From the NCBI RefSeq assembly GCF_000010525.1, contig NC_009937.1, forward strand, positions 1,989,501-2,053,500: a stretch of 64,000 nucleotides of DNA. The letters run 5' to 3'. Numbering within the stretch: position 1 is the stretch's first letter; each line of letters opens with the position of its first letter. This DNA comes from Azorhizobium caulinodans ORS 571. Its GTDB lineage: Bacteria > Pseudomonadota > Alphaproteobacteria > Rhizobiales > Xanthobacteraceae. Below are positions 60,464 to 62,289 of this stretch, piece after piece. The notes under the pieces were generated by a model. That model worked only from the letters and a program-made list of their open reading frames with translations. It made no database searches and had not been told where the DNA came from. The translations under genes and the position numbers were made by a program.

Positions 60464-61267
60464 ATGGGGAACGTGGTGACGGCGGGAAAGATCGACGCCC
60501 TTCTGGCGCTGAAGAGCGATGGCCGGCTGCTGGTCGGGCGCGACCGCATCCGGCTGCTGGAAGCGGTGGCGGAGCATGGCAGCATCACCCGGGCGGCAAA
60601 GGCCACGGGCTTCAGCTACAAGACCGCCTGGGAGGCGGTGGATGCCATCAACAACCTGCTGCCGACGCCCGCCTTCATCACCCGCACCGGCGGCAGGGCG
60701 GGTGGGAATGCGGCTATTACCGACGAGGGGCGGCGGCTGATCGCCACTTTCCACCGGCTGGAAAGCCGGCTCGCCGCCCTCTCCAGCCTCATCGCCGAGG
60801 ATGGGCTCGATGGCCTGAGCGAGACGCTGCTCTGGACCGTGGGCGTGCGCATCTCGGCCCGGAACATGTTCCAGACCGAGATCACCCGCGTGCAGCGCTG
60901 GCCCGTGGACGTGGAGGTGAGCCTGAAGGTGAGCGAGAGCGTCTGTCTGTGCGCCGTCGTTACCAATTCCGCCGTGGAGGAACTGGACCTCAAGCCGGGG
61001 AGGCGGGTGCTGGCGCTGGTGAAGGCCTCCTTCGTGCATGTGCATGCCCCCGATGCCGTGCCGCCCGAGGCGCGCAACCGCTTTCCCGGCATCATCGCCG
61101 CACGCACCGATGCGGAGGTGAACAGCGAGATCCAGCTCGACATCGGCAATGGCAAGACCATCACCGCCGTCGTGCCACGTCGGCTGGTGGAAGCAGCAGG
61201 TTTCGCGGAGGGCGATGCCGCCGCCGCCACCTTCGATCCGGACCATGTGATCCTCGCCGGCGATTAG
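60464..61267 (+). CDS. modE: ModE-type molybdate-responsive regulator
   Basis: About 267 residues from the ATG at 60464 (ATG 60449 and GTG 60407 are alternatives). The N-terminal LysR-like winged helix has LEAVAEHGSITRAAKATGFSYKTAW (quoted in part). Two Mop/TOBE domains follow: ISARNMFQTEITRVQRWPVD with VKASFVHVHAP, and then FPGIIAARTDAEVNSEIQLD with VPRRLVEAAGFAEGD. The SARN signature is typical of molybdate-binding Mop domains. When molybdate is bound such proteins usually repress molybdate uptake and activate or repress molybdoenzyme genes. Confidence 0.88.
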   Translation: MGNVVTAGKIDALLALKSDGRLLVGRDRIRLLEAVAEHGSITRAAKATGFSYKTAWEAVDAINNLLPTPAFITRTGGRAGGNAAITDEGRRLIATFHRLESRLAALSSLIAEDGLDGLSETLLWTVGVRISARNMFQTEITRVQRWPVDVEVSLKVSESVCLCAVVTNSAVEELDLKPGRRVLALVKASFVHVHAPDAVPPEARNRFPGIIAARTDAEVNSEIQLDIGNGKTITAVVPRRLVEAAGFAEGDAAAATFDPDHVILAGD

Positions 61268-61410
61268 GACCGCGTGGCCTGTCGCTTTCTCGACAGGCGG
61301 CTGTCGGCGTGCAGGACGTTATGTTGTGAAGCTGACGGCAGGAGGCTGCGAAGGTTGTCCGTTTCAGCCTGCAACAGCGTCAATCGCAATTGGCCCCGCG
61401 TTTGCTTCAT

Positions 61411-61441
61411 CCTCATTATGTAATCGTCTTACATAATGAGG
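61411..61441. promoter_or_regulatory. Palindrome resembling a ModE (Mo-box) operator
   Basis: CCTCATTATGTAA (61411-61423) and TTACATAATGAGG (61429-61441) are perfect 13-base arms with a five-base centre. The TATGTAA/TTACATA core fits the A/T-rich dyads bound by ModE. The right arm supplies the GAGG ribosome-binding site for the gene starting at 61447, so occupancy would block transcription or translation directly. modE is the adjacent upstream gene. Confidence 0.75.
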
Positions 61442-61446
61442 CGGCA

Positions 61447-62289
61447 ATGGATGGGACAGCGGCAGCCTTTCTGCGCAGCCGGCCGGAAGTGGCGATCGTG
61501 CTCGGCACGAACGAGATCGCATCCGCCGTGGCGATTCACCTTCACCGGACGGGCTATGCGGTGGTGATGTCCCACGATGCCGCACCGCCGGTGATCCGCC
61601 GCCGCATGGCCTTCCATGATGCGCTGTGGGGCGATCCCGCGCCTGTGGAGGGCCTCGAGGCGGTTCCGGTGGAGCGCGTGAGCGAACTCTTTGCCATCTT
61701 CACGCACGGCGGGCGCCTCGCGATCACGCGCATGGGGCTCGTCGAACTGATGGTGATCGCGCCCTTCGCGCTGCTGATCGACGCCCGGATGGACAAGTAT
61801 GCGGTGAAGCCGGATCTGCGGCATCTGGCGGATGTCACCATCGGTCTCGGGCCGGGCTTTGCCATCGGCCGCAATTGTGATGTGGCTGTGGAAACCCACC
61901 CCCGGCTCACCGGGCAGGTCGTGGCCGAGGGCGAGACGCAGGCGGGCGACCGTGTATCCCGCCGCCTGGGCAATTCCGGTGCGGAGCGCTTCGTCTATGC
62001 CGGCCTGCCCGGCCGCTGGCATACGGCCCACAGCATCGGCTCGCGGGTCTTCCGGGGCATGGTCCTCGGCCATCTGGAGCGGACGCCGGTGCTGGCGCCT
62101 CTCGACGGCGTGCTGCGTGGTCTCGCGCGCGACGGCATCGAGGTGCCCGGCGGCGTGAAATTGCTGGAGATCGACCCCCGCAACCGCTGGCAGGCCCGCT
62201 TTACCGGCATGGACGAGCGTGGCCGCGCCATCGCCGAGGCCACGCTCGCCGCCGCACGCGCCCACCGGGCACCGGCACCGCTGCACTGA
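61447..62289 (+). CDS. YqeB/EF2563-family molybdenum hydroxylase maturation protein
   Basis: About 280 residues. The sequence shows the layout of selenium-dependent molybdenum hydroxylase system proteins (YqeB/EF2563): a Rossmann-like opening, GTNEIASAVAIHLHRTGYAVVM, GGRLAITRMGLVELMVIAPFALLIDARMDK and GLGPGFAIGRNCDVAVET (all quoted in part). Family members are thought to act in maturing molybdenum hydroxylases such as xanthine dehydrogenase. The ATG at 61447 follows the Mo-box-like palindrome. Annotation by recognition only. Confidence 0.78.
   Translation: MDGTAAAFLRSRPEVAIVLGTNEIASAVAIHLHRTGYAVVMSHDAAPPVIRRRMAFHDALWGDPAPVEGLEAVPVERVSELFAIFTHGGRLAITRMGLVELMVIAPFALLIDARMDKYAVKPDLRHLADVTIGLGPGFAIGRNCDVAVETHPRLTGQVVAEGETQAGDRVSRRLGNSGAERFVYAGLPGRWHTAHSIGSRVFRGMVLGHLERTPVLAPLDGVLRGLARDGIEVPGGVKLLEIDPRNRWQARFTGMDERGRAIAEATLAAARAHRAPAPLH

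Follow-up and report, generated by a model that had tools for sequence, protein, structure and literature searches.

A palindrome at the predicted start of a sigma-54 promoter is a likely ModE operator before a nitrogenase-associated yqeB-like gene of Azorhizobium caulinodans

We analysed a 64,000-nucleotide stretch of the Azorhizobium caulinodans ORS 571 genome (hereafter the window), in which a gene for a ModE-type regulator is followed, 179 bp after its end, by the start of a yqeB-like gene. The genes and the elements between them are as follows (positions counted from the first base of the window):

60464–61267, + strand: ModE-type molybdate-responsive regulator with a helix-turn-helix (HTH) and two TOBE/Mop stretches (Pfam, TIGR models, alignment to 1b9m)
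61280–61295, + strand: NifA-type upstream activating sequence (UAS) TGTCGCTTTCTCGACA, of the form TGT-N10-ACA (motif scan)
61317–61324, + strand: CGTTATGT, a possible but weak single ModE half-site (alignment, also in A. doebereinerae; scan score 13.1 out of 20)
61390–61406, + strand: sigma-54 −24/−12 element TTGGCCCCGCGTTTGCT (score 23.5 out of 25.5)
61411–61441, no strand: perfect dyad, proposed ModE operator (Mo-box-like), at about −6 to +25 of the predicted start, with its core position kept in three relatives
61417, + strand: predicted sigma-54 transcription start (by the −24/−12 rule, 12 bp after the GC of the −12 element)
61438–61441, + strand: Shine-Dalgarno GAGG, the end of the second dyad arm (sequence)
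61447–62289, + strand: yqeB-like gene, 280 aa, with a predicted Rossmann-like part and a predicted biotinyl/lipoyl-like barrel (TIGR03309; structure model)

The product of the upstream gene matched Pfam HTH_1 (37.5 bits), Pfam TOBE (100.3 bits) and TIGR00638 (95.5 bits), all over their cut-offs, and its residues 11–265 align to the solved ModE 1b9m, so that it has the HTH and the two Mop/TOBE domains of a ModE. It scored under the NCBIfam cut-offs of TIGR00637 (91 vs 98.5 bits) and NF007957 (139.6 vs 369 bits) and is therefore named ModE-type here; with that wording, the ModE gene that the first-pass annotation had placed before the palindrome was borne out. The downstream gene had been called YqeB-type, which stood as far as homology to TIGR03309 YqeB goes; at 156.5 bits it falls under the 220-bit equivalog cut-off, making it a relative and not YqeB proper. 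A structure model of the protein reached a mean pLDDT of 88. A YqeB profile found no significant relative among the sequences of solved structures (best E 0.27), and Foldseek gave one match at E < 0.001, with TM-scores near 0.24. In a second fold comparison the barrel resembled 5gu9 (Z 10.6, rmsd 1.3, 65 aligned) and the Rossmann-type part 4pcv (Z 10.6, rmsd 3.1, 128 aligned); these likenesses of a predicted model imply no function.

The palindrome, CCTCATTATGTAA-TCGTC-TTACATAATGAGG, was confirmed as a perfect dyad with 13-bp arms, a 5-bp spacer and the Shine-Dalgarno sequence in its second arm, 5 nt 5′ of the yqeB-like ATG. No other perfect dyad in the window combines arms of 13 bp or longer with a spacer of at most 10, such dyads being absent from 20 of 20 shuffles, and allowing up to 3 mismatches there was no other match in the window and no second copy in the organism's own 5,369,772-base genome. 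The palindrome covers both the ribosome-binding site and the predicted start of the sigma-54 promoter. A terminator reading was rejected on sequence, as the dyad is A/T-rich and a T-run is absent.

The predicted promoter consists of the TGT-N10-ACA at 61280 and, 110 bp further on, the element at 61390, which resembles the sigma-54 consensus TGGCACG-N4-TTGCW (PMC4999443). The −24/−12 rule puts the start at about 61417 and the dyad therefore spans about −6 to +25. This is the sole such pair in the window at a score of at least 20, and A. doebereinerae has TGTCGGGTTCCGGACA at the position matching the UAS. The genome encodes a NifA (TIGR01817, 848 bits vs a cut-off of 528.85). When 309 kb of own-genome loci, which were chosen and not random, were scanned at a score of at least 21, 11 pairs were returned, one being the window yqeB promoter again. 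The other ten represent eight promoters. Five belong to the two nifH regions, two of these being some 0.2 kb ahead of a nifH gene, and the nifH promoters serve as a positive control. Two more diverge from the interval between ahpC and the genome's other yqeB-like copy (yqeB2, genome position 1181733), next to nifA, and the last is roughly 1 kb beyond a MoCoBD_1 match. At the divergent site (G000:C1:1181375-1181594) an ahpC-like gene, named by eye, and yqeB2 are divergent around a single TGTCGGCTTTCCGACA site, and a sigma-54 element points in each direction; nifA is further along, and modD follows yqeB2.

Upstream regions of yqeB were compared in 84 non-identical sequences (79 of the 80 named relatives, the window and 4 order-level loci; L174 was excluded for too little upstream DNA and a fifth order-level locus, L013, for being identical to a named one). 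These sequences are related and therefore the counts are not independent events. TGT-N10-ACA was found in 62 regions (shuffles 4.5%) and was missing from 22, the stricter TGTC-N8-GACA was found in 50 (shuffles 0.44%) and a sigma-54 element scoring at least 20 in 62 (shuffles 8.9%). A UAS together with a sigma-54 element (at least 19.5, at −20 to −90) was present in 59 of the 84 regions vs 4 of 4200 shuffles. Where yqeB belongs to the fixR-nifA cluster, the UAS before it may also be that of fixR. In one order-level genus (g33, L013–L016) neither a UAS nor a sigma-54 element was found before yqeB, though all four genomes have nifH.

The distribution of the gene also follows nitrogen fixation. 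In 198 genomes of the family, drawn from a larger group, yqeB matches of any strength occurred in 53 and strong ones (E at most 1e−30, a threshold chosen after inspecting the list) in 47, that is in 47 of the 51 nifH-positive genomes vs 0 of the 147 others. The genomes with NifQ are the identical set of 51; YqeB as a NifQ replacement was rejected, NifQ being present in all 47 strong-yqeB genomes. The nifH model, TIGR01287, also detects Fe proteins of alternative nitrogenases; its family cut-off was passed by 45 of the 198 genomes, two more (G199, G306) have large matches below it, and the count of 51 includes four (G244, G321, G336, G374) with only short nifH pieces, one of which in G244 and in G336 lies at a contig start, and with NifQ in all four. 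The 47 strong-yqeB genomes comprise 41 that pass the nifH cut-off together with these two and these four. Five nifH-negative genomes gave weak yqeB matches (E 2.6e−27 to 5e−4), and four nifH-positive ones lacked a strong match (G035, G274, G339 and G171, the last having yqeB pieces only). These pieces, at G171:C142:18498-19015, include one with two internal stop codons. Outside the family, all 9 order-level yqeB-positive genomes, the only ones covered by the nifH search at that level, have nifH over the cut-off.

Around the gene, the DNA retrieved for 48 of the 80 named loci contains nifA, nifB or nifH (the NifH query came from L098, presumably an AnfH, and its matches were 58–60% identical); next to yqeB there is a presumed fixR (a short-chain dehydrogenase) in 31 of 80 and nifA in 26 of 80. 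In A. caulinodans the window yqeB lies about 880 kb away from the nearer nifH, and linkage alone therefore does not explain its presence. The first-pass annotation had proposed a maturation factor for a molybdenum hydroxylase, with xanthine dehydrogenase expected downstream. That proposal was not supported: no such gene was seen by eye among the ORFs of at least 150 aa in the next 16.4 kb, the nearest of the genome's 8 MoCoBD_1 matches lies about 28 kb after the window, and the gene tracks nitrogenase and has a NifA/sigma-54 type promoter. It looks like a nitrogen-fixation gene and not a xanthine dehydrogenase factor.

We then scored the dyad as a Mo-box. It reached 18.8 out of 20, the top score in the window, which is not independent support because the weights were chosen with this site in view and allow its two departures from the E. 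coli-type operator, ATCGNTATATA-N6-TATATANCGAT (PMC545781). Its half-site is 8/10 like that consensus, counting N as a match, and the half-sites are spaced by 7, as in A. doebereinerae, where the E. coli-type operator has 6 between TATATA halves; the spacing of 6 was found at the organism's own modA and at five other loci described below (L122, L147, L152, L192, L017). Across the 84 upstream regions, window included, a Mo-box of at least 14 was present in 13 (shuffles 1.1%), the other 71 scoring below 14, and one of at least 15 in 6 (shuffles 0.08%). Of 79 loci, 16 have a ModE-type gene no more than 5 kb from yqeB; among the 63 scored without one, 20 are shortened by contig ends. Mo-boxes were more frequent where such a gene is present, with the caveat that the sequences are related: 10/16 vs 8/63 at a score of at least 13 (p = 1.2e−4), 6/16 vs 5/63 at 14 or more (p = 0.007) and 4 loci vs 2 at 14.5 (p = 0.014).

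The first-pass annotation had made the presence of further sites near molybdenum genes a test of its reading; one was found, at modA, and none of note at hydroxylase loci. In 13 own-genome loci the scan returned, besides the window, modA at 14.7 and three sites at 14.0–14.1 (L087:19628, L091:14089, L007:17815), where about 0.2 sites per 20 kb are expected by chance at 14, and 0.04 at 14.5. The modA Mo-box (G000:C1:2696085-2696110, L087:8586-8611) has the classical spacing and lies 17 bp before the modA start codon; about 2.7 kb beyond it, on the opposite strand, is a short ModE-type gene. This second ModE-type HTH protein has 130 aa and scores 74.8 bits against TIGR00637, under the cut-off of 98.5. 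The modA site, CTATATATGAGGAGATATAA, is unlike the yqeB dyad and lies near the short gene, and therefore the two regulators may read different sites. Genome-wide near-matches to the dyad were about as frequent as those to a control pattern (10 vs 8 and 25 vs 17), and a wider regulon did not emerge. The shorter spacing gave exact matches at modA, 3350141 and 5134547, and no molybdenum gene was seen in the 3-kb loci around the last two.

The start-site dyad is common to the window, A. doebereinerae (L120), Pinisolibacter (L137) and a Phyllobacteriaceae MAG (L198). Its TGTAAT starts, by eye, 13, 14, 14 and 14 bases after the −12 TTGC in these loci, respectively; the Pinisolibacter and Phyllobacteriaceae sequences keep only the core TGTAAT...TTACA, and in Pinisolibacter the start-site dyad (13.4) is weaker than another candidate at −218 (14.7). 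A full-length ModE gene lies just upstream in all three dyad loci with readable DNA, at 83% identity in A. doebereinerae and 64% in Pinisolibacter, the Phyllobacteriaceae sequence ending before this region. A. doebereinerae has, along a single strand and in this order, DUF2478, short ModE-type, ModE, yqeB, NMT1-like binding protein, permease, ATPase and a molybdate-binding protein (291 bits, cut-off 264). Taken together, half-site likeness, kept position, linkage to ModE and the molybdate-transport genes of the congener support the suggestion that molybdate, through a ModE-type protein, would control the yqeB-like gene, and make the dyad a likely ModE operator.

After yqeB, an ABC transporter that includes an NMT1-like binding protein is encoded at about 10850–13434 of L120 and at L198:1158-2972, and an ATPase 56–63% identical is found downstream of yqeB also in L137, L157, L173 and L198; the substrate of this transporter is possibly a molybdenum species. 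DUF2478 proteins are encoded near yqeB and ModE-type genes in L060, L068 and L120, with modD also in L060. No paper linking DUF2478 with molybdenum was found in the open literature searched.

Five family genomes, including A. caulinodans itself, contain both a copy of at least 53% identity (or the window's own) and one at 44–47% (G000, G211, G242, G282, G381; the second copy of G381 was matched in two pieces, and the other multi-match genomes, G216, G239, G352, G383 and G171, fall outside this split and were left out). The first copy is beside a ModE-type gene in all five (in G282 via L185, at the same position) and the second is about 9–12 kb from a nifH match in all five. In an order-level two-copy genome, G027, the second copy and nifH are on different contigs. 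The first-copy upstream regions of the three Rhodopseudomonas genomes (G242, G282, G381) are without TGT-N10-ACA, and in G242 the first copy follows a DUF2478 gene, with a 14.7 Mo-box between that gene and a divergent modD. The two-copy split is consistent with a division of labour, the ModE-linked copy being the one that responds to molybdenum.

A second layout was found in a Methylocystaceae MAG, two Methylosinus, a Hyphomicrobiales MAG and an order-level genome (L122, L147, L152, L192 and L017), where TGT-N10-ACA lies inside the Mo-box as TGTTATAT-N5-ACAATAYA, with two copies in L017. The looser TGTTATAT-N5-ACA occurred in 0 of 4200 shuffles, and no other TGT-N10-ACA was found in the upstream regions of these loci. 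ModE would here cover the NifA site, and direct competition of the two regulators is possible on this arrangement of bases; alternatively, the TGT-N10-ACA could occur within the Mo-box by accident.

We consider it probable that a ModE-type repressor uses the A. caulinodans dyad as its operator, at the start point of a promoter that depends on NifA and RpoN and drives a nitrogen-fixation-linked yqeB-like gene. Under nitrogen-fixing conditions NifA would bind TGT-N10-ACA at 61280 and activate sigma-54 RNA polymerase at 61390. With ample molybdate, molybdate-loaded ModE from the gene just upstream would bind the start-site dyad and block transcription, so that yqeB would be expressed when the cell fixes nitrogen while short of molybdenum. 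The elements, their conservation, the co-occurrence with nif and the linkage to ModE-type genes were found by computation; from these we infer ModE binding and repression, NifA as the activator and a YqeB that aids molybdenum supply to nitrogenase.

The same bases could serve in RNA, a leader hairpin hiding the ribosome-binding site and controlling translation. A transcript started upstream, for example by read-through from modE, would fold the full 13-bp stem including GAGG, and the hairpin of 61405–61470 is predicted at −19.1 kcal/mol (z −2.03, 8 of 200 shuffles as good). However, a start at 61417 would leave a 7-bp A/U stem with GAGG outside, the left arm is broken at two positions in A. 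doebereinerae, and the outer arms of L137 and L198 are out of register by eye, all of which makes such a switch improbable. A site for some other DNA-binding protein is a little easier to entertain, though still unlikely: the dyad has two differences and one extra spacer base relative to the E. coli-type consensus as quoted above, and the core alone is kept in two of the four loci, whereas a full-length ModE adjoins the dyad wherever the upstream DNA is readable, the half-site is largely consensus-like and Mo-box-like sites occur at yqeB in other genera.

If ModE is the protein bound, it might act the other way round, the gene being made when molybdenum is ample, and ModE is indeed an activator of some operons in E. 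coli. A site at about −6 to +25 of the predicted start is, however, where a bound protein would block, and the closest precedent, morAB, is Mo-repressed (PMC6925177), so we regard activation as very unlikely. There is a modest chance that the dyad is bound by the short ModE-type protein whose gene lies near modA, or by this protein and the full-length one together. The genome does have this further ModE-type HTH gene, various relatives carry short ModE-type genes next to yqeB, and in R. capsulatus either MopA or MopB suffices (PMC6925177); against this, the start-site dyad accompanies full-length ModE in 3/3 readable loci. Repression by the full-length ModE-type protein encoded next to the dyad remains our preferred reading.

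Among the matches listed in the open literature, no paper on ModE control of a yqeB-like gene was found, YqeB and ModE never having been joined in one query; YqeB with nitrogen fixation returned Clostridiales only, and selenium-dependent molybdenum with nitrogenase returned methanogens only. The Mo control of yqeB, the nif co-occurrence count and the five loci with a NifA site in the Mo-box are apparently new. A wider picture is possible, if somewhat short of likely: the alphaproteobacterial YqeB-like proteins may be nitrogenase-dedicated molybdenum-handling factors, of which Azorhizobium would have two, one beside nifA and one made only when fixation meets Mo shortage via a NifA-ModE gate. 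This gate would take two forms. In Azorhizobium and Pinisolibacter it would be a roadblock at the start site, and in Methylosinus, the Methylocystaceae MAG and two others a NifA enhancer within a Mo-box, so that both regulators would contend for one set of bases. The majority of nitrogenases depend on molybdenum, and to our knowledge the allotment of the scarce metal to them is not well understood. A gene named for selenium or xanthine chemistry tracks nitrogenase almost one to one in the family, and a single promoter bearing both nitrogen-fixation and molybdenum signals makes it possible to test directly, by genetics, for a missing molybdenum-handling step.

Several known systems resemble parts of this arrangement. 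A 2016 study predicted NifA sites before 'xdhC', modABCD and ahpC/ahpD in Alphaproteobacteria (PMC4999443); its entry 'xanthine dehydrogenase (xdhC)' is described there as a gene without a known nitrogen-fixation link, the section mentions no ModE site for it, and these 'xdhC' genes may be the yqeB-like family. The clostridial sigma-54 regulon DioR includes yqeB (PMC6615313) and is alike in placing yqeB under a sigma-54 enhancer-binding protein; it differs in its activator and in belonging to Firmicutes, and its pathway is given there as unknown. TIGR03309 YqeB, of selenium-dependent molybdenum cofactor biosynthesis, is homologous over about 253 residues, whereas the 5 members tested here score 143.9–162.1 bits, below 220, and are linked to nif and mod genes. 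The E. coli-type ModE operator, as represented in PMC545781, shares the A/T-rich half-sites (TCATTATGTA in the window vs TCGNTATATA) and the adjoining ModE-type gene, whereas the window half-site differs at two positions (A for G and G for A), the spacing is 7 and not 6 and the promoter is of the sigma-54 type. R. capsulatus morAB encodes transporter parts and not a yqeB-like protein; as reported in PMC6925177, it is NifA-dependent and Mo-repressed by the ModE-like MopA/MopB, and it thus has in common with the promoter proposed here a NifA-type activator and a ModE-type repressor on one Mo-related promoter.
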